Origin: an uncultured Rickettsiella sp.
GTDB lineage: Bacteria > Pseudomonadota > Gammaproteobacteria > Diplorickettsiales > Diplorickettsiaceae
Assembly (NCBI GenBank): GCA_947058615.1
Contig: CAMSHF010000001.1
Coordinates: forward strand, 1 to 64,000
Direction of reading: 5' to 3'
DNA: 64,000 nt
Part shown: one piece after another, positions 6,478 through 46,050 of the stretch
Layout: each line of letters starts with the position of its first letter
How positions within the stretch are numbered: the first letter of the stretch is position 1
Program-made: the position numbers and the translations under genes
Notes under the pieces: generated by a model
The model's database searches: none
What the model was told of the DNA's origin: nothing
Seen by the model: only the letters and a program-made list of their open reading frames with translations

Positions 6478-6502
6478 TGTTTTTTTCTCCTTTTTTTCAT
6501 TT

Positions 6503-9618: not shown

Positions 9619-9621
9619 ACA

Positions 9622-9918: not shown

Positions 9919-9964
9919 ATTAATTCCCTCTAAACTTATTATTTTTCTTCCAATACTTTACTAT

Positions 9965-10291: not shown

Positions 10292-10356
10292 AATTATTAT
10301 GCTTTTATTTTAACTTATTTTCTTCAAAAAATCACTATAAAAATAGCTGTTTTTTA

Positions 10357-16999: not shown

Positions 17000-17338
17000 T
17001 TGACACCTTTTTATTTGTATTAAATAAATAACGAGACTGATAAAATATTATGTTTCTATTAAGATTTTATCCCTATATTCTCCCCATTTATAATTAAATG
17101 TGGCTAAAAAATAAGCTCAGTATACTATCTTATTTCTAACATGCGCAAAGATTAATGCAATCTTAAATTACTATTAAATTACCTTAATTTCTTATTTATC
17201 CAATTAAATCAATTACTAAATTTTTATTGTAGAATATAAAAATGAGAAAAATTTAATTATAGTTTACTAACTATTGATTAATCTCAATTAATAGAATACA
17301 AATGCGCTTTTTAAATTTAATATAAAGTCAAAACTAAT
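17000..17338. other. AT-rich divergent promoter region between kinase and NRPS
   Basis: This 339-base spacer holds no open frame or RNA gene that I can support. It is very AT-rich, so many sequences resemble -10 boxes and none can be singled out. It must hold the promoters for the kinase (leftward) and the NRPS (rightward). Confidence 0.4.
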
Positions 17339-23300: not shown

Positions 23301-24916
23301 ATATAAAATTAACCAAATTACCTATTGGAACTCCTTTATCTAACACTAAAGTGTATGTACTAGATAAAAATTTACGTCTTATGCCAATAGGAGGTATAGG
23401 TGATCTATATATTTCAGGATTAGGTTTAGCAAGAGGCTATTTAAACCAAGCTAATTTAACCAAAGAAAAATTTATTGAAAATCCATTTATATCAAAGAAT
23501 ATTAATTACTGTAGGTTATATCGAACAGGAGATTTAGCAAGATGGTTACCTGATGGTAACCTAGACTATATAAACAGAAGTGATTATCAAATTAAAATAA
23601 GGGGCTATAGAGTAGAACCTGGCGAAGTAGAACATGCTTTATTAAAACACAATTCAATAAAAAACAGTGTTGTTTTACTTAAGGAAAACAAAGGCATGCA
23701 TTCGCTAATTGCGTTTTTAGTTAAAAAGAAAGAAGAAAATGTAAGTATTAAACAACTCCGTGAGTTTCTTTCAAAGCAACTACCTTATTATTGTATACCT
23801 GACCAATACATGTTCTTAGAAAAATTACCTACAACACATAACGAGAAAATAGATTATCGACAATTAATGAATATTGAAATAGAGCCTCCACAACCCGTTG
23901 ATGACGCTGTTATGACGTCAAAGCAATTAAAATTTGCTAACTTATGGAAGGAAGTACTACAAGTTAAGAGCATTTCCTTGTCAGATAATTTCTTTGAATT
24001 AGGAGGAAACTCACTTTTAACCCTTAGATTAGTCAGTAAAATTAATAAGGAATTTTCTATTGTTTTAGAAATGAAAGAAATTATAGAACATCCGGTATTT
24101 AGCACGTTATATGACAGAATTATTTTACTAAAGGATTTTCAAGAGAAAAATTCAAAAACTGAAGAAACAATAGATTTTGTAAAATCTATTCCCGACCCAA
24201 TCATTAAGCTAAATGAAACAGGTAATAAAACACCACTATTTTTGATTCATCCCGTGGGTGGTAATGTATTTTATTATATTCCACTTGTTAAATCCTTAGC
24301 TAAAGATAGGACTGTATACGCTATCCAGGATCCAGGTATACGATGCCGTCAACCCTTATTTGAAAGCTTGAATGAAATGGCAAGTTTTTATATTAAAGTA
24401 ATAAAAAAATACCAACCTAAAGGGCCTTATCTTCTTGCAGGGTCTTCATTTGGAGCGAATGCCACTATAGAAATAGCGAGACAATTAGTCAATCAAGGTG
24501 AACAGCCGATGTTTGTTGGACTTATTGATGGCTGGGCTAAGTACCCTAAAGAAGCAAATGACAATCGAGAATGGTTTTGTCAAAATCTAATTAATCAACT
24601 TAAAACTCTTGATCAATATTTTTCTCGAGCTGATATCCCAGAATTGCTTTTGGATCTACATTGGCATCGACAACAATTATTAGTGAAACATATTTTACCG
24701 GATATGTCCGACATGCAATTAACTCTATTTAAAGCAAAGCAAACTATGGACGTACTTAAGCCTCTAGAATCTCCCTATAATAATTGGGATATCTATTGCA
24801 AGAGTACTCCCATAGTATATCCAGTATCCGGTGACCATTTCACAATGCACTTTCCACCGAATCATGAATCACTTGCACAGGCCTTTAAACAATGTCTTGA
24901 AAAAATTAATGTTTAG
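17339..24916 (+). CDS. Nonribosomal peptide synthetase, T-C-A(Thr)-T-C-A(Gly)-T-TE, 2525 aa
   Basis: Domains in order: T0 with LGGNS (Ser about 41); C1 with HHIITDAW (227-234, the usual DG is DA); A1 with TSGTTGVPKG (about 712), NMYGITETT and KGFRIEAGE; T1 with LGGDS (about 1133); C2 with intact HHSILDG (about 1338); A2 with TSGSTGMPKG (about 1832), NVYGPTETT and RGYRVEPGE; T2 with LGGNS (about 2224); TE with GSSFG (Ser about 2370) and GDHF (His about 2498). Aligning the A domains by hand to GrsA gives codes D-F-W-N-I-G-M-V-H (Thr) and D-I-L-Q-L-G-V-I-W (close to the Gly code). T0 has no A domain, so its starter must be loaded in trans. It converges on the PKS operon. No strong ribosome site is visible. 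Confidence 0.95.
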   Translation: MSNLTHNKNKIYSILLDIWTKSLKTIDIESQDTFISLGGNSLTAIQIIHKINESLEISLPLDAIFKHNTVEKLTTFIAKHAIQKYNLETIEKKIWQDCGTPLTQSQQQIYFLEQYNDNASSAYLVSFAFEINGKLDRLVLEKSINTILQRHDIFGSFFREYTEGIKQFIQKDINIRVPIEENINIEDLQKQILSETRKKINLSNPHLKRIKLLKLSEQRYFLVITVHHIITDAWSISLFKKELEECYNAFSNNEYPKLTVLKMGYADFISQQISYLKSHKIFDDSKYWQSNLVNFTEITFPTDFKRPKTKKFIGKRLTFSLNKTIVKKINRFNIQNNTTSFMLMATVLSILLSRYNQQEDVVIGFPISGRNASEFSHTMGLFLNTLVLRSNLQEKDTFESFLLNVKQNLLDAYAHQNFPFSQLVKQLNVSRSQNKNPIFQIMLVWQDSLDSNNLVFPEMTMTPHFLDNRTSKFDMTFEFIPSTLGIDCIIEYDTQLYKKSTIKRLSLHFLNLLLSGIENPNKNLLALEFITLQEKKRFLKSPILSKLDIVEPDTIHELFEKQAERFPDKMAICCDELALTYSELDKKSNQLARYIKYHYKECFTSPNILIGICLDRSLELVISMLAILKVGAAYVPLDPEWPKKRLDTVLSDANCSIVLTDNINKDKFSSIKLDTQKLLILDEELHELAEVSTLKITKESNKCQDLIYVIYTSGTTGVPKGVSQTHYNVIRLLQRGHELFGFTFEDVWTLFHSYTFDFSVWEIWGALGSGGCLVIPTYQETRDPVLFYHLVLQHKVTILNQTPSAFQLFMQAEETNTRKISALKYIIFGGEALDVTLLSPWWKRYSEKHPILVNMYGITETTVHTTYKFLTKKDLNRREFSNIGMPLADIKAYVVDSHCKLVPVGVPGELLLSGFGLSPGYLNRPQLNAEKFIKNKFNETLLLSHSLAESAFSRLYKTGDLVRRLADGSLEYLGRIDKQLKVKGFRIEAGEIEAALNMHKTIRQCLVSTLKQNNLTFLVAYYIADKRITKKTDNKYLSIELRTYLSSLLPAYAIPKFFIKLDSFPLTPNMKIDYAALPLPSPSSVDSDSPTTLITKKSRHTEPEAILAGLWKSTLQVDTIHLDDNFFSLGGDSISSIRIVTEARKKGFGFSVSDLFKSPTIRKLSKHYKNQTQAKKIKLKTFDITNKKQIISEKFHIAIENIEDIYPLSALQTGMVYHSSYSTKSAIYLDIFCYKIMGSYNKSCLLQAIQCLINLHPILRTSYLLNEFDEPIQVVHATIKIPFCEQHLANMSSVEQECKLESWILEEKTKSFRFEDAPLFRITAHLIHEKQFVLSISFHHSILDGWSLASFITELLANYSQQLSLKFRTEPTAKTKSVKHTEQLGMSANQLDNKVDWNFKEFVRLEKETLASEVHRIFWKNELRNFEITEIAYIENTILPNNNDFCSHCIQVNRQVTAKLIVLAKSLNISLDEIILTAHMKLLSIYSSQEDVLSGVVFNGRPSLDNIDTTLGLFLNTLPFRINVSNCTWKELIHLVSEKKKHLYPYRRYPLMKIMQDINTDPLFNIIFYFTHFHIYKKIKANSHFKIIDQKHYERTNFPLAINCTLDPVNKKLEIVFNYETQHYNSQQIIHLADSYIRLLESIVTDVDGQHTAFALLTSEQKRHLLIDWNQTEKVFPQNKLVHELIEDVTEKFPKRIAIIFETTSISYYELNRKSNQLANYLNKQKTYSNKLVGLCIDRSLEAIIAMLAVWKAGKAYIPIDPSYPEERIKFILNDSQCHILITRKNLIPGLAFSNEIDLIYLDDLYSITKSISAENSINTTSDKANLAYVIYTSGSTGMPKGVMVEHLSLVNLLWDMQKKIDFTENDNFLSLTSFSFDISILEIFLPLITGGCCVLADQSGSKDPEWIKDTLKNWPITVVQATASKWALLFEHGLTESKCKIKALCGGETLPTYIASQLIEFSESAWNVYGPTETTIWSTIYKLTKENIKLTKLPIGTPLSNTKVYVLDKNLRLMPIGGIGDLYISGLGLARGYLNQANLTKEKFIENPFISKNINYCRLYRTGDLARWLPDGNLDYINRSDYQIKIRGYRVEPGEVEHALLKHNSIKNSVVLLKENKGMHSLIAFLVKKKEENVSIKQLREFLSKQLPYYCIPDQYMFLEKLPTTHNEKIDYRQLMNIEIEPPQPVDDAVMTSKQLKFANLWKEVLQVKSISLSDNFFELGGNSLLTLRLVSKINKEFSIVLEMKEIIEHPVFSTLYDRIILLKDFQEKNSKTEETIDFVKSIPDPIIKLNETGNKTPLFLIHPVGGNVFYYIPLVKSLAKDRTVYAIQDPGIRCRQPLFESLNEMASFYIKVIKKYQPKGPYLLAGSSFGANATIEIARQLVNQGEQPMFVGLIDGWAKYPKEANDNREWFCQNLINQLKTLDQYFSRADIPELLLDLHWHRQQLLVKHILPDMSDMQLTLFKAKQTMDVLKPLESPYNNWDIYCKSTPIVYPVSGDHFTMHFPPNHESLAQAFKQCLEKINV

Positions 24917-25152: not shown

Positions 25153-26694
25153 CTACTCGCGAATACAGATCTTTTCATTATCCCTCATTCTGAAATCGGG
25201 TAAAAAATCCGTAAATAAAATATTTAAATCATCTTCAGAAGTTAACACTTTCATAATGTAGGTATCCGGTCGAATTAAATACCCGCACACACCTAAATGA
25301 CCATAAATTAATCCTTTATTTTTAGTTTTACTAACTAGAATTACCTTTATTAAAGTATTTTTATAATAAGAATCCATGTCTAGGTATTTATTATAAAATA
25401 AAATTAAATTGAACTGAGTAGGAGATATAGCATCATATACAGATCTACCATCTTCCATTATAAAATTAGGCATCCTATTTCCAACAATATCTGTTAAATT
25501 TTTAAAATTATAATTAATTTTATGCTGTGAAATATTTTGAATTTCTTTTCGATTAAATCGCCTAAAGTTCAAAAACCTCTTTTGAGCAATATTAAGAAAT
25601 CTTTTTGTAGCATTATTGCCAAAAATGACCTCGCTCATTTTATTATTATAATGAAATAACCTATGGGCAATCGGTAGTCTTTCATCAGTATACGTTTCCA
25701 TTATAGATGGGCGTAATCGATTTAGTACAGTTAAAGCTACTTTCCACCCAACATTAAAAGCATCCTGTATTCCTGTATTAAGCCCTTGTGAGCCAATTGG
25801 GCTTTGAATATGAGCTGCATCGCCCGCATAAACTACTCTATTTTCATAAAAACTATTGACCACAAATTGTTTTGGATTAAAGGTTGATATCCATTTTGGA
25901 TCACAAATAACCGCGTCATAAAAATTTATACTTTTCATAAGATCTGAAAATAATTCCAGTACATAACTATCGCAAAATTTTTGATCAGATTTTTCTGTAG
26001 TAATAATTCTATAAATAAAATTATCCTTGTCTCTTTCTATAGGCATAATATAAAGAAAAGAACGTTTTTTTAAAAAAAATAAATGCCTTTCATCAAAAGG
26101 TAGAGCTAATTTTTTAATAGTTACATCAGCCATTAGAAAAGTTTCATTATGTTCTTCGCCATTGAAATCCATATTATCAAATTTTCTGACAGAGCTATGT
26201 CCTCCATCACATGCTAAAAGATAACGTGTTTTAATTTTATAATAGATACCTTTTTTTTTATCAAAAATAGAACAAATAATACAATCTTCATTCCGATTAA
26301 AATTAATAAGTTCCATTTCTCTTTCTATTATGGCACCTGTATTTAAAAGCTTATCATTGAGAATTTGCGTGGTTTTTGATTGTGAAATTTGTAATATAAA
26401 ATTATACTTACTCTCAAGATGAGAAAAATCAGCTGTACCAATTTTTCGATTTCTATAATAATAATTTAGATAATACGTTGGAATACCAGCTCTTACCATG
26501 ATTTCGGCAACTTCTAGCGTATTTAAAACTTCAAGTGTGCGAGAAGTAATTGTCATCGCTTTACTCTTACTAGACCATGAAGATTGTTTATCTATTATTC
26601 TAAAAGAAACTCCAAATTTTTTTAATATAAGGGCTAATGTTAATCCTACTGGACCTGCACCTACAATCAATATTTCACAATCAAGCATAAACAA
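25153..26694 (-). CDS. FAD-dependent aromatic monooxygenase (PHBH/MhpA/RdmE-like), 513 aa
   Basis: Class A flavoprotein hydroxylase. The FAD-binding Rossmann motif is ILIVGAGPVGLTLALIL (about residues 8-24), the middle GD motif is YLLACDGGHSSVRK, and the second FAD motif is GDAAHIQSPIGSQGLNTGIQ (about 290-309). The C-terminal thioredoxin-like domain is present, judged from length. Enzymes of this family hydroxylate phenolic rings or aromatic polyketides using NAD(P)H and O2. It is the last gene of the PKS operon and overlaps the preceding monooxygenase gene by 14 bases. The N-terminus is slightly different from the sister gene, so these are not recent duplicates. The substrate is not known. 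Confidence 0.88.
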   Translation of the reverse strand: MFMLDCEILIVGAGPVGLTLALILKKFGVSFRIIDKQSSWSSKSKAMTITSRTLEVLNTLEVAEIMVRAGIPTYYLNYYYRNRKIGTADFSHLESKYNFILQISQSKTTQILNDKLLNTGAIIEREMELINFNRNEDCIICSIFDKKKGIYYKIKTRYLLACDGGHSSVRKFDNMDFNGEEHNETFLMADVTIKKLALPFDERHLFFLKKRSFLYIMPIERDKDNFIYRIITTEKSDQKFCDSYVLELFSDLMKSINFYDAVICDPKWISTFNPKQFVVNSFYENRVVYAGDAAHIQSPIGSQGLNTGIQDAFNVGWKVALTVLNRLRPSIMETYTDERLPIAHRLFHYNNKMSEVIFGNNATKRFLNIAQKRFLNFRRFNRKEIQNISQHKINYNFKNLTDIVGNRMPNFIMEDGRSVYDAISPTQFNLILFYNKYLDMDSYYKNTLIKVILVSKTKNKGLIYGHLGVCGYLIRPDTYIMKVLTSEDDLNILFTDFLPDFRMRDNEKICIRE

Positions 26695-28177
26695 TATTAC
26701 TCATGACAGAAAATATTAAATTTGGTTTTGTAATGGAGAATATATATAAATCTGGACGAATAATTAAACAAAAGCCATTTTCTAGTAGTGAAATAATGTT
26801 ATATTCGTAAATATCTTGTATTTTCAAATTTTTAATATTACTAATTTTATCTATATCAATAAAAATATAATTCAACTTCCTATCAAAATCAGAAAAACAT
26901 ATCTTTGTCTGATTATATTTTTTATCAATAAGAATACTCCATTGATTTGTTAAAATCTCATCAAGTCTTTTAACTTGGTTATTTTGAGTTAAAATATAAA
27001 TAGAAGGTAGCAAATATCCGCCAGAATACGAATTTTTTTCAAAATAAAAAGAACATCTGGGTGTAAGTTTAATTTTTCGGTAATATTGACTGCTAAGAAT
27101 TGAGTTTTTATTATTAGTTTTTTTTACATTTTTGGCTAATAAACGAATAAATTCCATAATTTCGCGTATAGCGAATGTTCGCTCTTTGTGATATGTCTTG
27201 AGAAGATTAGGCGACACTCCACAATGAACAACCTCTGCTAATTTCCAACATAAATTCTGCGCGTCTCGAATTCCAGAACACATGCCTTGCCCTCCATAAG
27301 GAGGAACTAAATGCGCCGCATCACCAAGCAAATAAATATTATCTTGTGAAAACTTTCTCGCTAAGCAAAAATTTCTTTTATAAATTCTTGCGCGAATAAT
27401 TTTAGGGTCAATTCCTTCTAGAAAATCTTCTAAAAGCATACAGGCAAGTAAGTTATAATCGGTAAGTACCATCCCAGAATTTATTTTAACTTCAAAACGC
27501 CTCATTTCATAAGGAAAATTAATAGTTACACAGGAAAGTTTGCAAGTTTTTTTTTCGGCAATTTTATTAATATTAATTTGTAACTGTTCACTATCTTGCA
27601 TATCGATAACCATCCAATCTTCACTGGGATCTAATTCATCGAATTGAATTCCACACAAAGACCTAATAGTGCTTCGCCCACCATCACATGCTAGTATATA
27701 ATTAGCCTTAATCTGAATTTGACGATTTTGATAAATCGCCGTTGCCATATAGTAATCAGTTTCTTTTTTTATATTAATTAATTCACACGGCCGAGATATA
27801 TGTACAGACTGTGAATGCTCAAGTTTATCAATTAAAAGCTTTTCTAGATCTGGCTGATAAAATGTTGACAAAATAGGAAATTCGAAAGGGCAAAAATCAC
27901 TATCAGGAATAAAAAAACTATATTCGCCGTTAGGTGAAAAATATTGAACGTGTGGCTTTTTGCATATATTTTTAATGTCTTCATCTTGAAGGCATAAATT
28001 TCTTAAAAGACGTAAAGATTCATCGTCTATGCCAATTGCTCTAGGATAAGTATATGCTTCAGACTTTTTGTCAATCAATAACGACTTAATCTGAAATTTA
28101 TCTAAATAATTGGCAGCAGCTAATCCAACTGGTCCTGCACCAACAATTAATACCGTAAATTGATTTTCAATTGACAT
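26681..28177 (-). CDS. FAD-dependent aromatic monooxygenase (MhpA-like), 498 aa
   Basis: Second class A hydroxylase of the cluster. It has VLIVGAGPVGLAAANYL at the N-terminus, ILACDGGRSTIRSLCG in the middle and GDAAHLVPPYGGQGMCSGIR (about residues 284-303), closely matching 3-(3-hydroxyphenyl)propionate hydroxylase-like enzymes. It overlaps the reductase gene upstream by 11 bases and the other monooxygenase gene downstream by 14 bases, so the three are translationally coupled. Location in a PKS operon suggests tailoring of an aromatic product (inference); degradation of phenolics is the alternative, but no ring-cleavage genes are nearby. Confidence 0.88.
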   Translation of the reverse strand: MSIENQFTVLIVGAGPVGLAAANYLDKFQIKSLLIDKKSEAYTYPRAIGIDDESLRLLRNLCLQDEDIKNICKKPHVQYFSPNGEYSFFIPDSDFCPFEFPILSTFYQPDLEKLLIDKLEHSQSVHISRPCELINIKKETDYYMATAIYQNRQIQIKANYILACDGGRSTIRSLCGIQFDELDPSEDWMVIDMQDSEQLQININKIAEKKTCKLSCVTINFPYEMRRFEVKINSGMVLTDYNLLACMLLEDFLEGIDPKIIRARIYKRNFCLARKFSQDNIYLLGDAAHLVPPYGGQGMCSGIRDAQNLCWKLAEVVHCGVSPNLLKTYHKERTFAIREIMEFIRLLAKNVKKTNNKNSILSSQYYRKIKLTPRCSFYFEKNSYSGGYLLPSIYILTQNNQVKRLDEILTNQWSILIDKKYNQTKICFSDFDRKLNYIFIDIDKISNIKNLKIQDIYEYNIISLLENGFCLIIRPDLYIFSITKPNLIFSVMSNIVYA

Positions 28178-29396
28178 AATTTTTTAAAGTAGAGTCATTA
28201 TTGTTAACATTCATATAAAATACAATTTTACCCCTAGTGTGCCCCGAATCTATAGATTTATGTGCTTCAGCTGCTTGAGCTAGAGAAAATACTTGAAAAA
28301 CGCAAGATTTTACTTTATCAGTCCTTATGTGCTCAGCTAGCAGCTTTAGTCCAGTAATATTTGGCTCAAAAAATGAATAATTAAAATATCTTCCATGTTC
28401 TTTAATTTGATAAAATTTACGCTCTAAGGTATTAGAAACAAATTGACGCATACCAACATGCAGCCCTTTTGAATCAGTAAACGGCATCATTGGTCCAACA
28501 ATAGAAATATACCTAGAGGAATACGAGAAAATCTTTAATAATTCAAGATCAAAATACTTCAGTATGTTTTTATATTTTGAAACGTCCCAGGTTTCATCAG
28601 CCCCAGCCAGCATCTCTAAACAAGAAGTTAATACCGCCTCAATTTGCAATTCTATTGCCTTGTATAATGAGACACTTTTTAATAATGGTAAAATAGAATC
28701 TGTATGGGACTTACCTAGTAAATCATAAGCAATATCACAATTTCTTACTCTTTTGCTATAATCTTCTTTTTCGTAATTAATTACTTCATCTGCACCTAGT
28801 CTATTAAGATAATCGACGTTAGCTTCACTACAAGTAGTGACAACATAAGCGTTCAGTGCTTTTAAGAATTGAATGGCATAGCTTCCAACTCCACCTGCTC
28901 CAGCAGAAACAAAAACCTGCTTACCCGCATAGTCCTCACATCGCATACCACTCTGAGTAATCAAAGCATGATAGGTAGTAAGGGCAACATACGGAAATGA
29001 GGCGGCTTGAACATGAGTAACATTAGTCGGTTTATTTGTAATTTCAGAAGTTGGTATACAAACAAATTCGGCATGGCTCCCCTGCTTCATTCCTAATGCT
29101 CTAAAGGGACTTACCACACCAAAAACACTATCACCTTTTTTATACTCCTGTACGTCTTCGCCGACTTTAACAATTACTCCTGAGAAATCTCGTCCTAATA
29201 TAATCGGCAATGGAGCTTTTAACGAAAAAATCGTTTTCCCATAGCCAGCTCTAATTCGTGCATCAATCGGATTAAGTGATGCAGCATATACTTCAACAAG
29301 TACTTCATCTTTGTTTGGTTCTGGAACGGCGTATTGAACAAGATCTAATGCCTTAACTGGATCAGTATCATATTTTTTAAGCATAACTACTTGCAT
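28167..29396 (-). CDS. MDR-family NADPH oxidoreductase, RTN4IP1-like, 409 aa
   Basis: Zinc-independent medium-chain reductase. The N-terminal GroES-like part has PDKDEVLVEV-like PNKDEVLVEVYAASLNPID and PIILGRDFSGVIVKVG. The Rossmann motif is VSAGAGGVGSYAIQFLKAL (about residues 151-169). An insertion of about 60 residues after DLLGKSHTDSILPL and the GPMMPFTDSKGLHVG stretch recall the RTN4IP1 subgroup of quinone reductases. It ends with HTRGKIVF, typical of the superfamily. I prefer the ATG at 29396, since AGGA lies 8 bases upstream; the frame opens at 29402. In PKS clusters such enzymes act as trans enoyl reductases or reduce quinones. The cluster has no embedded ER. Confidence 0.82.
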   Translation of the reverse strand: MQVVMLKKYDTDPVKALDLVQYAVPEPNKDEVLVEVYAASLNPIDARIRAGYGKTIFSLKAPLPIILGRDFSGVIVKVGEDVQEYKKGDSVFGVVSPFRALGMKQGSHAEFVCIPTSEITNKPTNVTHVQAASFPYVALTTYHALITQSGMRCEDYAGKQVFVSAGAGGVGSYAIQFLKALNAYVVTTCSEANVDYLNRLGADEVINYEKEDYSKRVRNCDIAYDLLGKSHTDSILPLLKSVSLYKAIELQIEAVLTSCLEMLAGADETWDVSKYKNILKYFDLELLKIFSYSSRYISIVGPMMPFTDSKGLHVGMRQFVSNTLERKFYQIKEHGRYFNYSFFEPNITGLKLLAEHIRTDKVKSCVFQVFSLAQAAEAHKSIDSGHTRGKIVFYMNVNNNDSTLKNYVN

Positions 29397-29416
29397 TACC
29401 ATTATCCTTTTAAATA

Positions 29417-32400
29417 TTAAATTAAATTATATGCTATTATTTCTTTCAAAATATTCTGAATAAAAAAAGATATATCCTTAGATATATGAGGGGTCAAATT
29501 ATCATTCTTTACAAAAAAATGATCCCCTTCGTATTTTTTTAACATTATTTGTTTTGACGTAAAGTTTGACCATTCCTCCATTTCTTTTTCAGTTACCCGA
29601 TCATCTAAAACACCATGTAGTGCAAGAATGGGTTTTGAAATATAGTTTGTTTGAAAGCGACACGAAGAAACAATGCAAAGATCTGCAATTAACATTTTCA
29701 AAAAATATTTAGCGTCATCAATTTTAAAATTAAAATTTTCAAGTTTTAAGATTTTTAATAGTTTAGAAATTTGCTTTTTATCTAACTCTTCAAACTCGTT
29801 AAAAATATTAGGAATGTTTAATCCAAATTCTTCTTGTATTTTATTATCGATTTTTTTTAACCACGGATTATCTTGTAAAAGAGGTGATGAACAAGCGGCA
29901 ACAACAATTCCACATGCCTGACTAATATTTTTAAAATTTAACATTAAAGAAAAAGCAACTAAGGCTCCAAAACTATGTCCATACAGTATAAATGGTAGAT
30001 TAGTATGTTCCTTAATCAAAGGTGTTAAATACTCATTAAAAAAATTAAGATTTAGACATAATGCTTCATTTTTTCGTTCTTCGCGGCCCGGAAGTTGAAT
30101 AGGAGAAAGATGTATCCAACTAGGCAAATATTTTCCTAATATATTAAAAATAGTAGCGCCCGCTCCTCCGTATGGAATCGCATATAAAACACATTTAGCT
30201 TGTGAATTAATCGAAGTATTTTTTATCCATTTATCTATACTATTTGATATAGGATCAGTATGAATTAAAATTTTTAAATTGGAAACAACATCTATAAGAT
30301 TTTCACGCTTATCAAAACAATTCAAAATATCTTTGATACTCATGCTTGTTGTTAAATCAACAATATTTAATTCACTCTTCAAACAACAATCTAATTTTTC
30401 TTTTAAAACCAAAGCTGAAATTGAATCTAAACCATAATTTGTTAAGGGTAATTTCGTATCTATTATTTCCTTGTCGATAATACCTAATAGTAAGCAAAAT
30501 GTATCTACTACAAACTGCTCAAACTCTTGTTCATTATTAAAAGTATTACTTATTGGATGCGTAAAATCAGAAACAGTTTGACTTATATCCATTTTTACTT
30601 GTTTCATTCGACACCCTGAAATTTCTGCAATTAAGAAATTTTCAGAATCAAAGAGTTGTAGATCACCAGTAAGTTCGTCATCAGATTCATTAATTATATT
30701 AATTAAACATTTAATATTGTTCTGATATTTTTCTTGAGTAAATAAAGTAAGTTTCTTAATAGAAGCCACCATATACTTGTTTTTGGAAGAGGAACAATAA
30801 CTATGCATGTGAAAAGCTTGCGCGCAACAATCTAATACTTCAGGAGAAAAAGGGATTTTAGTTTCAATGTTTTTTTCATTTTGAATATGTACTAAAAACT
30901 GCCTTTCGGACAAAACATCTATTTTATTGATTCTTTGAATATTTTTACCTAAAGGTAAATTAAGTTCTCGATTTAAGTAGGAATAAAAAGTTTCGCCTGA
31001 CATGGCGCTAGAAGCACTCTCATTATCATAATGAAAATCTATATTAACGCTATCAGCAAACTCAATATTACCTCTTACATGCTCTACCCATTTAGAGCTT
31101 AAGGATGATGGCTTTGATAAAAATATCCAACTGGAAGTTTTATCAGATGAACAAAACTTAATAATTATTTTTCTATTTTCAGATTTTTTAATAATTATTG
31201 GAGCAGTAAATGATAGGTTAGAAATAGTAACATTATGCGAATAATCTAGTACTGAAATCAATAAATCAATATAAATACCTATATGGACAATATTGTGCGT
31301 ATCTTTTATTTTATCATTATTTTGCAATAAATCTGTAATATCAAAAAATTTTATATCTCCTGGAACATCAATAATTTTTGGCTGATTATTTAACGTAGTG
31401 TTTTCTTTGAATTTTGGCCAATAAACCATTTTTTCAAACGGATAGGTAGGTAAAGATATCTTTAAATAAGAATTTTCTCGATAAAATGCTTCCCAATTAA
31501 TGCATTCGCCAGAATTAAGTAATGTAAAAAAAATAGAAATAAGCCAATCGCATGTTGGAGCATAATCTGTTTCTAGTTTCAAAAAAACATCTTTATCAAG
31601 GCTTTTAAGTTTTCCATTATTTATGCTATAAAAAACATTGGATGCTATTTTATTATTTGAGTTGATAATTGTATTTAATTGTTCATCACTAATATCATCA
31701 AAATTATTTATTGTAAGTAATAATTCATTGTTTATCAAATCATTGTTTTGACATAATAGCAAAGGAAAAATACAAGCTAAACCACTGTAACACCATTTAG
31801 TATCATCAAAGAAATTTTGAAGCAAATTAACTAAAGATAATCCAACAAGCAAATAATCACAGATACGAACATGCTGTATAGGAAATTTTCTACCTAATAG
31901 TATTGTATATGCTTTTTCATATTCACTAGGATAAAATTTCTTAATATCCTTAAGATAAGGTATCGTTTTATAAATTAGTTCGCTGCTAATACCAATAGAA
32001 TATTTTGCAGTGTTGGCTAACATGGAATCAGGATAATTAATAATGTAATTAAGTTTATCTAACAATTCTTTTTTTGTATTAACTAAAATATTAATTTTAT
32101 ATTTTTCAAAACTTCTGGAAATATTAGTTGTATAGCAAATTTGATCGATACTAAAATTATTATCTTCTTTTATCATTTCTATAAATTTTTTTATGTAAGC
32201 AATCAGTGAGTTTTTATTTTTTGCAGATAAACAAAAAATTTTTTTTAACTTAGATTCTGCGCTAGGTTTATTGATATATTTTGATATTATCGCACTAGCA
32301 TTTGTTCCACTAAAACCAAATGAATTCAAAGCAATAGCTTTGTTTGTCATATCAATTGGGATGATTTTTTTCGTAATGGTAATATTTGATGTCAATTTTA

Positions 32401-33616
32401 TGCGTGAATTGATATGTTGCGCATCCAATGGGTATGGTCCGATACAATTATTTTGCAGCATTAAAATAGCTTTTATCATTCCAGCAAGGCCCGAACAAGC
32501 TTCTGCATGCCCAAAATTAGCTTTTGATGAACCAATATACAAAGGAAATTCTCGCAAACTATCATCAGAAAATAGAACATCCTGAATAGCTTGAAACTCA
32601 ATAGGATCTCCAAGTGGCGTTCCTGTTCCATGCATTTCATAGTAGATGATCTGATTAGAATTTAACTCACTATCCTGGATCATAGACTTAATCAGTTTTT
32701 TTTGAGCTTGTCCATTTGGAACAGTTAAACCACTACTATGACCATCATGGTTAGTTTTAATAGATTCTATAACCGCCAAAATATTGTCATTATCATAAAT
32801 AGCGTCATCAAGTCTCTTAAGCAAGAGCACCGCACAACCTTCAGCGCGTCCATAACCATCTGCAGTTGCACTCAGCGTCTTGCAATATCCGTCTGATGAA
32901 AGTGCATGAATATCATTAAGTTGAATATTCAAATATTCATCTAGAATTAGATTTGTCGCCCCTGAAAAAGCATAATTACATTTATTATTCAGAAGGGCGT
33001 TACAAGCTACATTTAATGCTACAAGTGAGGATGAACAAGCGGTATCAAGCGTGACAGCCTCACTTTCATAATCCATAATATATGCAATTCTTCCTGAAAG
33101 AACACTAGCAAGCGTTCCCGTAAGTGAATACGGGCTACTATGTCCATTTCTGGATAAGATTTGATTAAAGTCCGAATTAATCGATCCAATATAAATAGCA
33201 GTTTTTTTATCAATGCGCCTTGCATTATAACCCGCATATTCAGCAGCTTCCCAAATAAGTTCTAACATAATACGCTGTTGCGGATCCATTTCTGCTGCTT
33301 CATTTGGTGAGATTCCAAAAAATAGCGGATCAAATTTTGCAATAGTTTCTAAATAAGAAGCTGGTTGACTTAATGAAATATTAGTTTCAGAAAGCCTAGT
33401 TGGAGGATATATTTTATTAACAATTTCGCCATCTCTAATAAGACTCCAATATTTTTGTGGAGTATCACACCCCCCTGGAAATCGACAGGACATGCCTACT
33501 ATAGCAATTTTAGATTTTTTTTTAATATTACTAATTTTTAAATTTTTTATTATCGATATAGATTCTTTTAATTTTTTTTTAAGAATTTCAATTTCTTCTT
33601 GTTGTGTTAATAACAT
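29417..33616 (-). CDS. Polyketide synthase: KS-(no active AT)-DH/PT-like-ACP-TE, 1399 aa
   Basis: A coiled-coil docking segment (1-35) precedes the KS, with active Cys in DTACSSSL (about 192), HGTGTPLGDP (about 329) and NFGHAEACSG (about 370). Residues 445-715 fill the AT position but lack GHSxGE; a weak VGLSLV and the post-AT linker PTYPFEKMVYW suggest an eroded AT. A double-hotdog DH or product-template-like domain follows (about 755-1010), with HNIVHIG instead of HxxxGxxxxP but a possible catalytic Asp in PEVLDCC. The ACP has GLDSIS (about 1080). The TE has GHSFG (about 1215) and GDHF (about 1367). No KR, ER or MT is seen. It starts 7 bases after the upstream PKS, so the two probably work in series. 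Confidence 0.93.
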   Translation of the reverse strand: MLLTQQEEIEILKKKLKESISIIKNLKISNIKKKSKIAIVGMSCRFPGGCDTPQKYWSLIRDGEIVNKIYPPTRLSETNISLSQPASYLETIAKFDPLFFGISPNEAAEMDPQQRIMLELIWEAAEYAGYNARRIDKKTAIYIGSINSDFNQILSRNGHSSPYSLTGTLASVLSGRIAYIMDYESEAVTLDTACSSSLVALNVACNALLNNKCNYAFSGATNLILDEYLNIQLNDIHALSSDGYCKTLSATADGYGRAEGCAVLLLKRLDDAIYDNDNILAVIESIKTNHDGHSSGLTVPNGQAQKKLIKSMIQDSELNSNQIIYYEMHGTGTPLGDPIEFQAIQDVLFSDDSLREFPLYIGSSKANFGHAEACSGLAGMIKAILMLQNNCIGPYPLDAQHINSRIKLTSNITITKKIIPIDMTNKAIALNSFGFSGTNASAIISKYINKPSAESKLKKIFCLSAKNKNSLIAYIKKFIEMIKEDNNFSIDQICYTTNISRSFEKYKINILVNTKKELLDKLNYIINYPDSMLANTAKYSIGISSELIYKTIPYLKDIKKFYPSEYEKAYTILLGRKFPIQHVRICDYLLVGLSLVNLLQNFFDDTKWCYSGLACIFPLLLCQNNDLINNELLLTINNFDDISDEQLNTIINSNNKIASNVFYSINNGKLKSLDKDVFLKLETDYAPTCDWLISIFFTLLNSGECINWEAFYRENSYLKISLPTYPFEKMVYWPKFKENTTLNNQPKIIDVPGDIKFFDITDLLQNNDKIKDTHNIVHIGIYIDLLISVLDYSHNVTISNLSFTAPIIIKKSENRKIIIKFCSSDKTSSWIFLSKPSSLSSKWVEHVRGNIEFADSVNIDFHYDNESASSAMSGETFYSYLNRELNLPLGKNIQRINKIDVLSERQFLVHIQNEKNIETKIPFSPEVLDCCAQAFHMHSYCSSSKNKYMVASIKKLTLFTQEKYQNNIKCLINIINESDDELTGDLQLFDSENFLIAEISGCRMKQVKMDISQTVSDFTHPISNTFNNEQEFEQFVVDTFCLLLGIIDKEIIDTKLPLTNYGLDSISALVLKEKLDCCLKSELNIVDLTTSMSIKDILNCFDKRENLIDVVSNLKILIHTDPISNSIDKWIKNTSINSQAKCVLYAIPYGGAGATIFNILGKYLPSWIHLSPIQLPGREERKNEALCLNLNFFNEYLTPLIKEHTNLPFILYGHSFGALVAFSLMLNFKNISQACGIVVAACSSPLLQDNPWLKKIDNKIQEEFGLNIPNIFNEFEELDKKQISKLLKILKLENFNFKIDDAKYFLKMLIADLCIVSSCRFQTNYISKPILALHGVLDDRVTEKEMEEWSNFTSKQIMLKKYEGDHFFVKNDNLTPHISKDISFFIQNILKEIIAYNLI

Positions 33617-33622
33617 AAATAA

Positions 33623-36600
33623 CTACATGGCTCCTTGAATTAAAGTTTCTGTTTCTTGTATAAATAAATCAACATCAATTTCATTATTTTCATTTTCAAA
33701 ACTATTTGCCCGCAAAGTCGGTGCACTTATATCTACATTAAGTAATTGGAGAATGTGTTGATTTAGTTTTTCGCAGGTAGGATAATTAAAAATGTCAACA
33801 TCCTCCAAAACGATATTTAATGATTTATTTAGTGCTCTAACTAGTTCCATAACCATCAATGACTCCATACCTAAATCAAAAAATCCTCTATCAACATTTA
33901 TCTCTTCAAGACTATAACCTAATACCTTGCCAACAATTGATTGAATAAATTCAATTAAATTTAATGGGGTTTTGTCTTGAAATGTAGCTACGTCTAAATT
34001 ACAAACATTAACATCAATATTATTAGCTAAGGCGCTAATTAAATTATTTTCTTTTATAGAGGTAGGTAAATATTCCTCACATGGCCAATGACGTTTCTTT
34101 ATAAAATTTCTAGGGGGAAGATTTAAAATAGAATTATTTTGGTATGGTAAAATTGTGTAATTAATATTAAATCCAATTGACCATAATTTTGCGGCTTGTT
34201 CATAATATTTTTTTTCTATTAAAAAAGTTATTAAGTCAGTATCAGTATCATCATGACAATTTAAAATTTCTGCGCCTATATAGAGTTTTTTTGAAATAAC
34301 TCCGTTGCACCATCTATCCAGTATATTTACTAATTCATCAATATGGTTAACAACACATGAAAGTCGAGCTTTATATGGATCTTTTTTTAATAGGCCTAAT
34401 GCTAATTGCTGAAGATTAGGATTATTAAGTTTTATATAATTGATTAAAATTAAAATATCTTTTTTTAAGCAATCTTGATTTCTAGCAGAAATCAAAATTA
34501 GCTGGTCTCTGTTAGATTGCTCAACGTAAGGTTTTATAACCTCTTCTTCAACTAAAACATGTACATTTGTTCCACCTGCACCGAATGAGCTAATCCCTGC
34601 TCTTCGTTGGTTCAAATCCGTATTTAAATTTTGAATCGTCTGCCATGGTTGCATAGACCGATTCACACTAAAGGGTAAACTATCAAAATTAATAAATGGG
34701 TTATAGGTTGAGCTAAATAATAGAGAGGGAACTAACATTTTATGTTGAAGCTGCAAGACTACTTTAATAAGCTGTACAATCCCCGAGGCAGCTTCAGCAT
34801 GCCCTATATTGGATTTAACTGATCCAATATAACATTGATTGTTTTTAAATTTATCTTTAAATACCTTGGCTAATCCTTCAATCTCAATAGGATCACCAAG
34901 AAGTGTTCCTGTTCCATGTGTCTCAATATATGAGATATCATTCCCAAACCATTTGGCATCATTTAAAGCATTTTCAATACAATTTGCCTGAGCGGATGGA
35001 TCTGGGACAGTATACCCATTGGTCTTTCCGCCATGGCTTACGCCCGAACCAGAAATTTTTGCCAGTTTATTAAACCCAAATTCCGAAGCTAAATTGCCCC
35101 TGCATAATATTACGGCTCCTACTGCTTCAGCAGGGACATAACCATCTCCATCTGCACCGAAAGCATTGCAATGTCCTTTAGCAGACAAATAACCATGCTT
35201 AATTAACATATCATATTTACTTGGATGTAATGTTAAATTAGTACCCCCAACGATAGCTAAATCACATTCCCCGGATTGGATGCTATGCAATGCTAAATGC
35301 AAAGCATAGAGAGAAGAAGAGCATGCAGTATCTACAACTAAACTTGGCCCAGTTAAATCAAAAAAATAAGATACTCGATTTGCAATAGAATAAGTTTGTG
35401 AATTAATGGGTAATGTATTTTCTTTATTTAGTTCAGATAAGATTAGTTGATAATTATTATAGGTACTACCAACTATTACACCGAATCGTCTATTTTGATC
35501 TTTAAGAGCTTTTAATATCGATCGATTAATCCCACTATGCTCAAGACAATCCTGGGCAATCTCTAAGAATATTCGCTCCTGCGGATCCATAAACACCGCA
35601 TCCTTAGGGGCAATACCAAAAAAATCAGCATCAAATTTATCGATATCAGTTAAAAATGATCCAGAAAGCGGATCTTTATATTTTTTATTAAATATTTCAA
35701 CAATATTTTCTTTCAGCGTTCTTGACCAGCGTTCTGTGGGCACGGTACTAACAGAGTCTTTCCCATTTTTAAGATTTTCCCAAAACTGAAATATATTATT
35801 TGCATCCGGAAATCGGCCAGCCATTCCTATAACATAAATTTCCTTATCATCAATATCATCTATATTAGATTTCATAATATTAGATTTTAGCGAAATACTA
35901 TTTTCATAATCTGGATCTAATTTAAGATTTTTTTTTAATTTTCCAATAAGTTCATTCAAATTTTTTGACTCATAAAAAACCGAAATAGGGATATTTCCAT
36001 ATTTTTTTGAAATCTCATTATGCACTTTTAAAATAGTAATCGAGTCAATACCTAACTCAAAAAGGGAAAAATTATGAATATCATGAATTTCGTTTTTTAA
36101 TTCAAGGATATCTAATAATTCAATACTAAAGTTATCAACCTTAACAGCAAAGGTCATATCCTCGCTTTTTTCATTTTTTTTATTTGGCAAATTTTCTAAT
36201 AATTTCCAATGGGATATTTTTTCAAATGGATAGGCAATAAGGTCTTTTCTTATATAAAGAAAATCTGAAAAAAATAAATTCCAATCAATAGCACATCCTT
36301 GCTGCCATAAATGTATGCAAGTAAATAAAATATCTTGTTTGTTATTTATGCAAAAGATATTTTTACCATCCGCATTTAACTCTAGAGTACCGCAAACAAA
36401 TATTAATGCTTCAGGAATAAGAGTTTGCAATGACTTTATTGATTTATTGTCATTTTTAATGTTAGTCAATGGTCGCATTGTGAATAAGCATTTATCTCGT
36501 TCAAAAAAATACAAGTATTTTGCATTTATATTGATATCTAAATTTATATCATTAACTATAATGTCAAAAATATGCTCTATATTTTTTTCGCATAAAGATA

Positions 36601-39583
36601 TAATTTTTTTTAAAAAAAATATATTAATATCTTTATTAATTAAATCTGTCTGAAAATGTAACTCTATAGCTTGCATGGCATGTATGCCAGCCAATAAATA
36701 TGTTACCTTCTTATCATTACTATTTTTTTTTCTTAATAGTTCTTGGCAGCGATCAAATTCATCTTTAAAGTATTTATTTACTGAAAGTAGCAATTCTATC
36801 TTTTCTGAAAAGAAATCAAATTTACTTTTTTTCAAAAGGGGAAAAACAATCTTTTTTATATTTTCCGAACTAAAGTAAGCCGGATAAAATATTTCGTTTT
36901 CATACCATATATCAAAAATTTGGATATTAGTAGAAGATTGACAAAGTTCTTTTATCTTACTCAAGAAATCATTAAGAATATTGTTATTTTTAGGAATAAT
37001 TACATCTAAATTAATTCCAGATTGAAATAAATGTTTAATATATGTCAGCGTAGTTTTACTAATATTATCAAAATAAAGAGCAAACTTTTTTTGGGAATGA
37101 AGAATCGGCTGATAATTGTGAACGGCATGATTAAGTTTTTCCAAAAGATCGTTTTTGTTGATAAATTTAGTAATATATCTATATTTCAAGGGTGTGCGAC
37201 CAAAAAGTAAATTTAAGCAAACATTGTTTATATCACTTTCCTCCCAGATCTTTAGATGCATATACCATTTTTGAATAAGAAGTTTTAAAACATCAATAGA
37301 TTGTGCAGATAAAGCAAATGGAACTACTTCCTGCTGTGATCTCTTACTAGATTCAGAAATAGTGTTTTCAATTTGAATTGGCTCCTCTAGGATACAATGC
37401 CCATTAGCACCTCCAAAACCAAATGAACTTACTCCTGCTCTTTTTATTGCAATTTTAGGTCCTTTCATCCATGTAATTAATTTATTTGCAACTTTAATGT
37501 TCGAATCACTTATTTCTAAAAGAGGATTTTCTCGTTGATAGTTAATTGATGGGGGAATGATATTATGTTTCATCATTAAAATTACTTTAATGATACCTGC
37601 AAAACCAGCAGCACCTTCAAGATGTCCAATATTAGATTTTACGGACCCAATATAAAGTTGCTCTGCGTTTCCAAATACTTCCTTAATAGCGTTCACTTCA
37701 ATTGGATCTCCCAGAGGTGTAGCTGTTCCGTGAGTTTCAATATAAGAAATATCTTGAGGTTTAAGATTAGCAGCCTCTAAAGTCTTCCGAAGCAATCTAA
37801 CCTGAGCTTGTTTAGATGGAGCTGTAATCGAACTATTTTGACCATTATGGGATAGTTCTATAGAATTAAGCACAGCATAAATGCGTGCTTTTATTTTTTT
37901 TGCCATTTTATATGTCGTCAATAACAATACTCCCGCACCTTCTCCCTGAACATATCCATTTGCACTAGCATCAAAAGTTTTACAAATTCCATCTTTGCTT
38001 AACATACGAGATTTAGAAAAATCAATATAACGTAGAGGATGACTTAAAATATTTACAGCGCCAACAATACTGAAATCACATTTTTTTTGTCGAAGCGCAT
38101 CAAAAGCTTGTTTTAAAGCCACAAACGAAGAAGCACAAGCAGCATCTGAAGAATAGCTTTCACCTGTTAAATTTAAATGATAAGAAATCCGATTTGCTAG
38201 ACCACATGCATAATTATTGATACATGTTTTAGCATCAATTTCAGTATTATCAGTATTTATAAATCTTAATAAATAATCAAATGCCATACCTCCTGTGTAG
38301 ACAGAAGTATTATACTGCTGAAGTATATTTAAGCTAATCGATGCATCCTCTATACAATGCCACGCTTCTTCAAGTAAAATTCTTTGTTGGGGATCCATTT
38401 TTTTTGCATCTGTTTTTGAAATATTAAAAAAATTATTATCAAAGTTATCAACCCCATCAATTGAACCTAACCATTTACTTTTTATTATTTCACGCTCATA
38501 CAATGTTGAAGCTTCAAAACGTTCCTTTGGAATTTCTTTAATACTACTTTTAGACGTCATTAAATTATTCCAAAATTCTTTTTCGTCACATGCCTCAGGA
38601 AATCGACATGATAAACCAATAATCAATATTTCATCTCCATTACATTGATCAGATGAATAATTTTTATTTATACTTTCTGGTTTATCTTCTTTTTTTAATT
38701 CACTTTTATTAAATGGATAGATCGTATCTGTTTTCTTTATACTTTCTAGCATATTAGTTAGCAACTTACTTTCGTTAACTTCAATAAATTGTTTATATCC
38801 TTGAGAAATAAGATACTTAATAGATGAGTACCATTGGACCTTACAAACAAGATGGTTTACTAGATACTCTTTAATTTTATCGTTTTCATATTCCCTACCC
38901 GTAATATTACCAATTACGTCATAGTTAATATTATTAATGGTTATTTGATTCAGCTTATTTTCAAATATTACTTTTGCCTTTTCCATTAATGGTGAATGAA
39001 ATGGTCCATTAGTGTTAAGCTTAATAACAGTTTTTGCCCCTTCTTTTTTCATTAAAATTTCAATATCATTCATTACGGTTTCGTGACATGAAATGACGAT
39101 CTGCTCGCGCGTATTAATATTCGCGATATAAGCTAGTTTTTCAAAGTTATTTTCAATAATTTTATTAATTTGTTCTAGCTGCAATCCAATTATAACAAGC
39201 ATGCCACCGTTTTTTACAAGTGACATAGCATCACCTCTTTCTTTTACTATCTTAAGCCCCGTTAATAAATCAAAAGCCCCTGCATTTTGTAATGCATTAA
39301 TTTCACCTAAACTGTGCCCAATAAAAATGTTATTTTTTCTTTTCTTTATATCGTCATTAGTTTGATCCAAGTAAGCTAAAGTATTAACCATGTAAATTGC
39401 TGGCTGTGAGAATTGAGTATTATTTAATTTTTCTATTGGGCCATTAATGCAAAGCTCCTCAATAGAAAATCCACAAATATCGTTAGCTTTAGACATAATT
39501 GCTCGATATTTTTTAAAATATTTTTTTCCCATACCCATTCGTTGTGATCCTTGTCCAGGAAACATAATAATTATTCTTGACAT
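33623..39583 (-). CDS. Polyketide synthase: AT-KS-ACP-KS-ACP, 1986 aa
   Basis: The protein opens with a FabD-like AT: MFPGQGSQRMGMG, GHSLGE (Ser about 89) and NGPFHS (about 195), a pattern typical of malonyl-CoA. KS1 has DAACASSF (Cys about 482), HGTATPLGDP and NIGHLEG. The stretch at about 760-1120 holds no KR and looks like an eroded AT (KFALYFDN where a GQGSQ region is expected), ending with AYPFEKISHW. ACP1 has GIDSIT (about 1184). KS2 has DTACSSSL (about 1418), HGTGTLLGDP and NIGHAEA. ACP2 has GMESLM (about 1906), then a Glu-rich tail that may be a docking domain. All KS residues look intact. AAGGA precedes the ATG. It is the first gene of the operon. Confidence 0.93.
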   Translation of the reverse strand: MSRIIIMFPGQGSQRMGMGKKYFKKYRAIMSKANDICGFSIEELCINGPIEKLNNTQFSQPAIYMVNTLAYLDQTNDDIKKRKNNIFIGHSLGEINALQNAGAFDLLTGLKIVKERGDAMSLVKNGGMLVIIGLQLEQINKIIENNFEKLAYIANINTREQIVISCHETVMNDIEILMKKEGAKTVIKLNTNGPFHSPLMEKAKVIFENKLNQITINNINYDVIGNITGREYENDKIKEYLVNHLVCKVQWYSSIKYLISQGYKQFIEVNESKLLTNMLESIKKTDTIYPFNKSELKKEDKPESINKNYSSDQCNGDEILIIGLSCRFPEACDEKEFWNNLMTSKSSIKEIPKERFEASTLYEREIIKSKWLGSIDGVDNFDNNFFNISKTDAKKMDPQQRILLEEAWHCIEDASISLNILQQYNTSVYTGGMAFDYLLRFINTDNTEIDAKTCINNYACGLANRISYHLNLTGESYSSDAACASSFVALKQAFDALRQKKCDFSIVGAVNILSHPLRYIDFSKSRMLSKDGICKTFDASANGYVQGEGAGVLLLTTYKMAKKIKARIYAVLNSIELSHNGQNSSITAPSKQAQVRLLRKTLEAANLKPQDISYIETHGTATPLGDPIEVNAIKEVFGNAEQLYIGSVKSNIGHLEGAAGFAGIIKVILMMKHNIIPPSINYQRENPLLEISDSNIKVANKLITWMKGPKIAIKRAGVSSFGFGGANGHCILEEPIQIENTISESSKRSQQEVVPFALSAQSIDVLKLLIQKWYMHLKIWEESDINNVCLNLLFGRTPLKYRYITKFINKNDLLEKLNHAVHNYQPILHSQKKFALYFDNISKTTLTYIKHLFQSGINLDVIIPKNNNILNDFLSKIKELCQSSTNIQIFDIWYENEIFYPAYFSSENIKKIVFPLLKKSKFDFFSEKIELLLSVNKYFKDEFDRCQELLRKKNSNDKKVTYLLAGIHAMQAIELHFQTDLINKDINIFFLKKIISLCEKNIEHIFDIIVNDINLDININAKYLYFFERDKCLFTMRPLTNIKNDNKSIKSLQTLIPEALIFVCGTLELNADGKNIFCINNKQDILFTCIHLWQQGCAIDWNLFFSDFLYIRKDLIAYPFEKISHWKLLENLPNKKNEKSEDMTFAVKVDNFSIELLDILELKNEIHDIHNFSLFELGIDSITILKVHNEISKKYGNIPISVFYESKNLNELIGKLKKNLKLDPDYENSISLKSNIMKSNIDDIDDKEIYVIGMAGRFPDANNIFQFWENLKNGKDSVSTVPTERWSRTLKENIVEIFNKKYKDPLSGSFLTDIDKFDADFFGIAPKDAVFMDPQERIFLEIAQDCLEHSGINRSILKALKDQNRRFGVIVGSTYNNYQLILSELNKENTLPINSQTYSIANRVSYFFDLTGPSLVVDTACSSSLYALHLALHSIQSGECDLAIVGGTNLTLHPSKYDMLIKHGYLSAKGHCNAFGADGDGYVPAEAVGAVILCRGNLASEFGFNKLAKISGSGVSHGGKTNGYTVPDPSAQANCIENALNDAKWFGNDISYIETHGTGTLLGDPIEIEGLAKVFKDKFKNNQCYIGSVKSNIGHAEAASGIVQLIKVVLQLQHKMLVPSLLFSSTYNPFINFDSLPFSVNRSMQPWQTIQNLNTDLNQRRAGISSFGAGGTNVHVLVEEEVIKPYVEQSNRDQLILISARNQDCLKKDILILINYIKLNNPNLQQLALGLLKKDPYKARLSCVVNHIDELVNILDRWCNGVISKKLYIGAEILNCHDDTDTDLITFLIEKKYYEQAAKLWSIGFNINYTILPYQNNSILNLPPRNFIKKRHWPCEEYLPTSIKENNLISALANNIDVNVCNLDVATFQDKTPLNLIEFIQSIVGKVLGYSLEEINVDRGFFDLGMESLMVMELVRALNKSLNIVLEDVDIFNYPTCEKLNQHILQLLNVDISAPTLRANSFENENNEIDVDLFIQETETLIQGAM

Positions 39584-40313: not shown

Positions 40314-40703
40314 TTACTGAATGGTATTTTTTAATTCTTGATACGAACACGCTTTAATTAAAACTCCATCGGCACTCCAATCCAGATATTTTTTTTCATT
40401 ATTTTTATTCACATAAGCACTCCATACTATTAATTGTGTACCTGCATTTAGTACGCTATCCCGTACATTCTGAATTATTTCTCTTTCTGATACTCCATAT
40501 AAGCGTAGACCTGTCACAATTAAATCATAGGTCTTACTATGTATATGTTGGGTGGCTGTAATGTCATCAACTGCCAAGTCAACTTGGTAACCTAGTTCAT
40601 GTAAATAATGACTCATAATTCTTTGACAAGCTTTATAAGATTCGACTAATAAAGCGCATTTAATGATATTATTTTTTTGTTTTTTTTCTCCTTGCGATTC
40701 CAT
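40314..40703 (-). CDS. Degenerate receiver (pseudo-REC) protein, 129 aa
   Basis: The length, the beta1 region CALLVESYKACQRIM, YDLIVTGLRLYG and the late Lys in VLIKAC follow the REC fold. However, the phospho-acceptor Asp is replaced: YDLIVTG aligns with YDLIFMD in the hybrid kinase, giving Gly where Asp should be. The acidic pair is also reduced to one Glu. It therefore probably cannot be phosphorylated in the normal way and may act as an atypical receiver controlled by protein contact, or it may be decaying. The frame itself is intact and AAGG-like sequence lies before the ATG. Confidence 0.7.
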   Translation of the reverse strand: MESQGEKKQKNNIIKCALLVESYKACQRIMSHYLHELGYQVDLAVDDITATQHIHSKTYDLIVTGLRLYGVSEREIIQNVRDSVLNAGTQLIVWSAYVNKNNEKKYLDWSADGVLIKACSYQELKNTIQ

Positions 40704-41064
40704 TATGACCTTTTTATAATTTTAGTTGAAATAATTATTATATATGGAGATATGATTTGTTCCGCCTCTCAAATAATTTTATTAACAAATTTTTCAGATT
40801 GATTCTTGATCTGTGCCTTGAATGCTATAGATTTAAATCAAAACTTGGTATCCGTATTAACTACGGGGAGCATTAAAAAAGTTTAGAAAGACTTAAGATT
40901 ATTTATAAAGAAAGCTTGAATAATAAAAGGGTCTTTAACTAAACAAACTAAATTACCAACAAAATCAATGGCCAATGCGGACAACTATATCCCCATTAAA
41001 AAAACAGCCCAACAAATTATCAGTCTTCAAATTTTTGAATTACTCTTTACCATATCTAAATACC
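40704..41064. other. Non-coding region between pseudo-receiver and LuxR gene
   Basis: About 360 bases without a convincing gene. The plus strand has two short open stretches (around 40755-40877 and 40925-41080) without start signals or homology that I recognise. They may be remnants of a lost gene. No hairpin or repeat stands out. Confidence 0.3.
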
Positions 41065-46048: not shown

Positions 46049-46050
46049 AT

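Follow-up and report, generated by a model that had tools for sequence, protein, structure and literature searches.

The 64,000-nucleotide stretch of DNA analysed here (the window), from a member of the Diplorickettsiaceae, carries a minus-strand operon of five genes (positions 25153-39583) that probably encodes a minimal, non-reducing trans-AT assembly line of three modules. We give a probability of about 60% to the reading in which this line makes an orsellinic-acid-type product that is subsequently oxidised. Judged from its domains, it appears to be a trans-AT assembly line rather than an iterative non-reducing PKS, and it looks like the aromatising two-module end of larger lines placed behind one acetyl-starter module.

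The five reading frames lay where a sequence-only reading of this DNA had placed them, and the domains of its parts list were recovered by Pfam. Since the genes are separated by gaps of 6 and 14 bp or overlap (two overlaps), they were taken to form a single operon; the likely start of FMOb is an ATG two codons inside the frame. In the five proteins Pfam detected one AT, three KSs, three ACPs, one thioesterase, an MDR reductase and two FAD_binding_3 domains. The three KSs and the single AT were as previously read, but the single ACP was not. All catalytic signatures were intact (the Cys-His-His triads of the three KSs, the serines of the three ACPs, GHSLG in the AT, GHSFG and GDH in the thioesterase). 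The AT, which scored 249 bits against the fabD model TIGR00128 (cut-off 260.9), is fused ahead of KS1. Pfam found no AMP-binding domain in the operon, and a promoter scan gave a result at chance level.

Table 1. Features of the PKS operon and of its neighbourhood, in window positions.
Feature	Position	Strand	Evidence
PKS1, 1986 aa: AT-KS1-linker-ACP1-KS2-linker-ACP2	33623..39583	-	ORF, Pfam
FabD-like malonyl acyltransferase, PKS1 N-terminus (residues 7-281), GHSLG, GPFHS	38714..39583	-	PF00698 E 2.4e-22
KS1, active site AACASS	37373..38647	-	Pfam, KS tree
Post-KS1 linker, ~390 aa, YPFEKxxxW motif at its end	36194..37372	-	alignment
ACP1, GIDSI	35939..36166	-	Pfam, motif
KS2	34517..35845	-	KS tree
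ACP2, GMESL	33749..33970	-	Pfam, motif
PKS2, 1399 aa, terminal module: KS3-linker-PT/DH-like-ACP3-TE	29417..33616	-	ORF, Pfam, alignments
KS3	32276..33514	-	KS tree
Double-hotdog DH/PT-like domain	30581..31405	-	AlphaFold model, Foldseek, alignments
ACP3, GLDSI	30311..30538	-	Pfam, motif
Type I thioesterase, GHSFG ... GDH (PKS2 residues 1144-1376)	29489..30187	-	Pfam, motif
MDR quinone-oxidoreductase-like enzyme, 411 aa	28167..29402	-	Pfam, NCBIfam
FMOa, class A FAD monooxygenase (MhpA-like), 498 aa	26681..28177	-	Pfam FAD_binding_3, NCBIfam
FMOb, class A FAD monooxygenase (polyketide-oxygenase / rifampicin-monooxygenase-like), 513 aa	25153..26694	-	Pfam FAD_binding_3, NCBIfam
NRPS T-C-A(Thr)-T-C-A(Gly)-T-TE, tail to tail with the operon	17339..24916	+	Pfam, A-domain codes
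Hybrid sensor histidine kinase, divergent from the NRPS	14600..16999	-	Pfam
Response-regulator receiver (40314-40703) and LuxR-type regulator (41065-41907)	40314..41907	-	Pfam
Sfp-type PPTase	42706..43470	-	Pfam

Two of the 16 genomes of the order carry this operon, namely the window genome and that of a congener of 'Ca. Rickettsiella viridis' (G014). The window genome (1.37 Mb, 14 contigs), which has the gammaproteobacterial ndk-rlmN-hisS-bamB-der block and a Dot/Icm DotI/IcmL protein, belongs to another genus of the same family. Gene order (FMOb-FMOa-QOR-PKS2-PKS1) is identical in both. Their identity ranges from 53 to 74% overall, with 53-63% over the operon (63% for the quinone reductase) and 74% for KS1, and the housekeeping GTPase Der is 74% identical. 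The pN/pS values between the two genomes (0.38-0.48) indicate purifying selection on each of the five genes. In G014, PKS1 is split after the AT, which has its own reading frame, and the frame is broken inside KS1. This frameshift could reflect decay or an assembly error; as it means that the G014 copy may be dying, it weighs against our preferred explanation.

A genome of the same genus as the window (G003) has a different, larger PKS; its PKS/NRPS cluster (C31:86000-107863; L018, L019) lies near a contig end and has its own AT and a PPTase 68% identical to that of the window. Among the 369 genomes of a class-wide sample, to which G014 does not belong, there was no full-length match to PKS2, the best others sharing 36-43% identity over the KS alone. 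No orthologs were returned by one scan of viral contigs or by two of 84,980 species genomes, which use exact short peptide patterns and may overlook near relatives. No description of the cluster was found in the open-access literature, and within the material searched no characterised system has this exact domain order, as had been claimed.

A KR or an AT hidden in the linkers was considered and rejected. With Pfam, neither a KR nor a second AT was revealed at E ≤ 1 in the five proteins, linkers included, and NCBIfam was also negative, in keeping with the earlier claim of a single AT and no KR; nor does an AT-type GHSxG motif follow any KS of PKS1 or PKS2. A KR search of the whole genome returned only four SDRs, all at other loci. 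If one of these SDR-like matches acted in trans, the line would make a partly reduced aromatic compound of the 6-methylsalicylate type. Yet these are unclustered proteins of 253-282 residues, and such SDRs match the KR model in all 14 control genomes, which makes a product of this kind very improbable.

In a profile comparison against AT, the post-KS3 linker reached a probability of only 33.7%, and the post-KS1 linker gave no match. A weak Pfam AT match in the post-KS linker of the G046 homologue is the sole hint that an AT may have decayed after KS3; it also suggests that the terminal module may derive from a cis-AT module. The post-KS1 linker is kept in G014 at 40% identity; its AlphaFold model (pLDDT 44.9) was too poor for use.

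In a phylogeny of 58 KS domains, KS1 and KS2 fell with macrolactin and other trans-AT KSs. KS1 and the first KS of macrolactin were sisters (support 99/99), with 48.6% identity and a shared AACASS motif. We take the Bacillus velezensis reference cluster in the tree to be that of macrolactin and its first KS to accept an acetyl starter, and KS1 may well do the same. KS2 clusters with the KSs preceding the terminal module in four other gammaproteobacterial trans-AT clusters (100/91). The nearest group for KS3 is formed by the terminal KSs from G046 and G210 (100/91), within a clade that includes a cis-AT-type KS. The clusters of G046, G210, G019 and G195 all terminate in KS-DH/PT-like-ACP-TE. 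In G046 (L031) and G210 (L033) these are large trans-AT clusters that have genes for O-methyltransferases close by. The KS tree and the terminal-module homologues support a non-reducing aromatic pathway in a bacterial modular arrangement, the aromatic product itself being predicted; the line appears to be a trans-AT one related to the legioliulin type, and not a non-reducing PKS of fungal type with its parts rearranged.

Instead of acetyl, KS1 could take a longer or special starter, in which case the same line would yield a 6-alkylresorcylic acid, to be converted by the flavoenzymes to an alkylated hydroquinone or quinone. Such a route would fit an operon that is devoid of a dedicated starter enzyme and whose UbiH-related flavin hydroxylases and RTN4IP1-like quinone reductase suit quinone chemistry. 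It is nonetheless unlikely in our estimate, as KS1 clusters with the macrolactin starter KS and, in contrast to G195 and G019, the line has no acyl-AMP ligase, either as a fused domain or as an adjacent gene. What would count against the orsellinic-acid reading is a KS1 that merely loads by decarboxylation, since this would give a triketide, for which no C2-C7 aromatisation is possible.

The PT/DH-like domain of PKS2 gave a weak Pfam match to PS-DH (residues 870-1010; 23.2 bits, just below the cut-off of 23.7). Its AlphaFold model, built from four sequences, is a confident double hotdog (pLDDT 78.6, pTM 0.78), for which Foldseek and VIA retrieved PKS dehydratases (Z up to 28.1) as well as the PksA product template (Z 23.8). 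By itself, such a modelled fold would not separate DH from cyclase activity. The canonical HxxxGxxxxP motif is absent, a shortened THxxxHxG stretch standing in its place. The second His and the Gly of HxxxHxG are invariant in six of six homologues and an Asp (Asp929, in LDCCAQ) is retained in five of the six; in G195 and G019 the second His of this stretch is kept and the first is not. With the canonical motif absent and the second His alone in these two clusters, any assignment of a catalytic His is tentative. NCBIfam gave no match to the fungal PT family at E ≤ 0.1 for this domain, and no SAT either. The lack of a fungal PT match, the Pfam score below the cut-off and the tentative catalytic His all weigh against the orsellinic-acid reading. 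A DH-like bacterial domain, that of AviM, has been proven to form orsellinic acid from a tetraketide (PMC9135731), and by analogy we infer that the domain of PKS2 would perform a C2-C7 aldol closure.

We considered a hotdog domain that has no activity or only a structural role. The thioesterase would then free tetraacetic or triacetic acid lactone, both alpha-pyrones, or pass a linear poly-beta-ketide to the neighbouring NRPS. The missing DH motif would be consistent with this, as would the unloaded T domain at the start of the NRPS and the tetraacetic acid lactone that AviM makes when its PT domain is inactivated by mutation (PMC9135731). Yet the conservation of the His and the Asp, the purifying selection and the presence of two aromatic-type hydroxylases in the operon argue for a working aromatising domain and make a non-aromatic output improbable. 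No homologous cluster with a non-aromatic product was found.

In the orsellinic-acid reading, the PPTase would activate the carrier domains and the N-terminal FabD-like AT would charge all three ACPs with malonyl. Acetyl-primed KS1 would then form acetoacetyl-ACP1, KS2 would extend the chain to a triketide and KS3 to a tetraketide, carried in linear form by ACP3. With no beta-hydroxyl to dehydrate, the DH-like domain would position this poly-beta-ketone for an aldol closure between C2 and C7, after which the thioesterase would liberate an orsellinic-acid-type 2,4-dihydroxy-6-methylbenzoate. Acetyl extended three times with no reduction becomes a tetraketide, the shortest chain that can undergo C2-C7 aldol closure, so orsellinic acid or a near relative is the likely product of the PKS.

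The two class A flavin monooxygenases would hydroxylate this aromatic acid, possibly with decarboxylation, and the quinone reductase would set the redox state of the hydroquinone or quinone formed. Both monooxygenases have intact FAD motifs. FMOa is closest to MhpA-type models and FMOb to PRK06184, rifampicin monooxygenase and angucycline-type oxygenase models. Their previous designation as PHBH-type had to be revised: at about 500 residues, and with lower scores to 4-hydroxybenzoate 3-monooxygenase than to the MhpA, PRK06184 and Rox-type models, they fall outside the PHBH subfamily proper (about 394 residues) and nearer to MhpA, polyketide oxygenases and rifampicin monooxygenase. RTN4IP1 was the best solved relative of the MDR enzyme. 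Hydroxylation followed by quinone/hydroquinone interconversion would fit this set of enzymes. The aromatic acid might remain free, be converted to a quinone or serve to cap the Thr-Gly peptide made by the adjacent NRPS.

The five genes stand as the operon, but positions 25153-39583 do not stand as the whole cluster, given the linkage of the NRPS, kinase and PPTase in G014. Because these three lie near the operon in both genomes, the real cluster would be larger, at about 14.6-43.5 kb; the receiver and LuxR-type genes are possible regulators of it. G014 has a full-length NRPS ortholog (67% identity) located 12.6 kb from the operon and divergent from an orthologous hybrid histidine kinase, so that this unit sits elsewhere relative to the operon than in the window. 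One PPTase copy lies beside the operon and another beside the kinase-NRPS pair, both broken. Co-conservation in two genera despite the altered arrangement suggests a functional link and does not by itself prove a single pathway; the PKS operon is probably tied to the NRPS.

The A-domain codes are identical in the window and in G014. We take DFWNIGMVHK to specify threonine and DILQLGVIWK to be glycine-like, with the numbering based on a GrsA segment and position 299 of the second code read by eye at an alignment gap. The N-terminal T domain of the NRPS is unloaded, and no DHB-AMP ligase was found above cut-off in the family. Since every part is conserved together in a second genus and this T domain is unloaded, a one-pathway reading can be proposed, in which hydroxylation turns the orsellinate-type acid into a catechol or hydroquinone that caps the Thr-Gly peptide to give a new symbiont chelator or redox-active signal sensed by the adjacent kinase. 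The logic would be that of bacillibactin, but with a polyketide as the aryl group; we put this forward tentatively and hold it to be doubtful.

Several further observations concern the surroundings. G014 contains another kinase (1259367-1261727) near an NRPS (1264220-1267201) and part of a kinase (1312346-1313377), which gives the impression that the kinase-NRPS pair is a repeated unit. G002, from the same genus as the window genome and devoid of the PKS, has relics of the kinase and of the NRPS thioesterase (C1:12049-12851 and 16938-17459; L083; 76% identity over 174 residues), pointing to an apparent loss of this unit. In the window, GC drops from about 0.38 to about 0.27-0.35 over positions 16000-48000 (the cluster and its surroundings), which is compatible with a foreign origin. 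VirB/TrbL/TrbI-type conjugation-like T4SS genes (1488-12063) flank the island, and genes for a legiobactin-like system, comprising an FslA/FslB-like rhizoferrin-type siderophore synthetase and an exporter (44849-47931), adjoin the cluster.

If the orsellinic-acid reading is true, our comparison would contain no smaller aromatic trans-AT assembly line. By joining one acetyl-starter KS to the two-module end of larger lines, it would offer the aromatising unit isolated for study. 'Ca. Rickettsiella viridis' turns aphids green with polycyclic quinones, and its own genome is without a PKS (PMC6016236). Its congener G014 carries an aromatic PKS, albeit frameshifted, with quinone-type enzymes; aromatic-PKS genes thus exist in the lineage, and we make no claim on the aphid pigment.

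Among known systems, the best match to a legioliulin-type cluster is that of G195 (C8:117213-135705), with the modules AL-KS-DH-KR-ACP, KS-ACP, KS-ACP, KS-KR-ACP and KS-PT-ACP-TE, in a Legionella-like genome (3.4 Mb, eight DotI/IcmL matches). From these modules an 8-hydroxy-3-alkenylisocoumarin is predicted; with a benzoate starter it would be legioliulin. That compound is made by a trans-AT PKS in Legionella, and the literature gives cinnamate as its starter (PMC5126622), so that the match is close rather than settled; G195 may carry the legioliulin cluster itself. The terminal module was compared with that of G195, taken as legioliulin-like. On this basis, the window shares with it the penultimate KS, the KS-PT/DH-like-ACP-TE terminal module, a similar N-terminal coiled docking stretch and a non-reduced last step. 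The two differ in that G195 starts with an acyl-AMP-ligase loading domain and has two KRs, a DH and five KSs, whereas the window counts three KSs and no KR, with the AT fused in front and a KS1 of the acetyl-starter type.

The bacterial orsellinic acid synthases AviM and CalO5 (PMC9135731) resemble the window in predicted product type and in a DH-like fold, which in the window would likewise act as C2-C7 aldol cyclase. AviM, however, is a single iterative synthase of the KS-AT-PT-ACP type with neither SAT nor TE (PMC9135731), whereas here the three KSs are spread over two proteins, the AT is predicted to act in trans and a TE is present. With fungal non-reducing PKSs (SAT-KS-MAT-PT-ACP-TE) it shares the non-reducing logic and the PT-like and TE domains; unlike them, it has no SAT, no cis MAT, three KSs and no match to the fungal PT model, and a fungal-type enzyme was excluded by this architecture and the absent PT family match. 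Psymberin-type trans-AT PKSs have a dihydroisocoumarin end. Likened by description rather than by sequence, they too are trans-AT lines with a non-reduced aromatic end. The C-terminal KSs of psymberin do not occur in the pederin relatives (PMC7930024). What is known, then, is the trans-AT PKS with an aromatising terminal module, and what is new is its cut-down, three-module variant.
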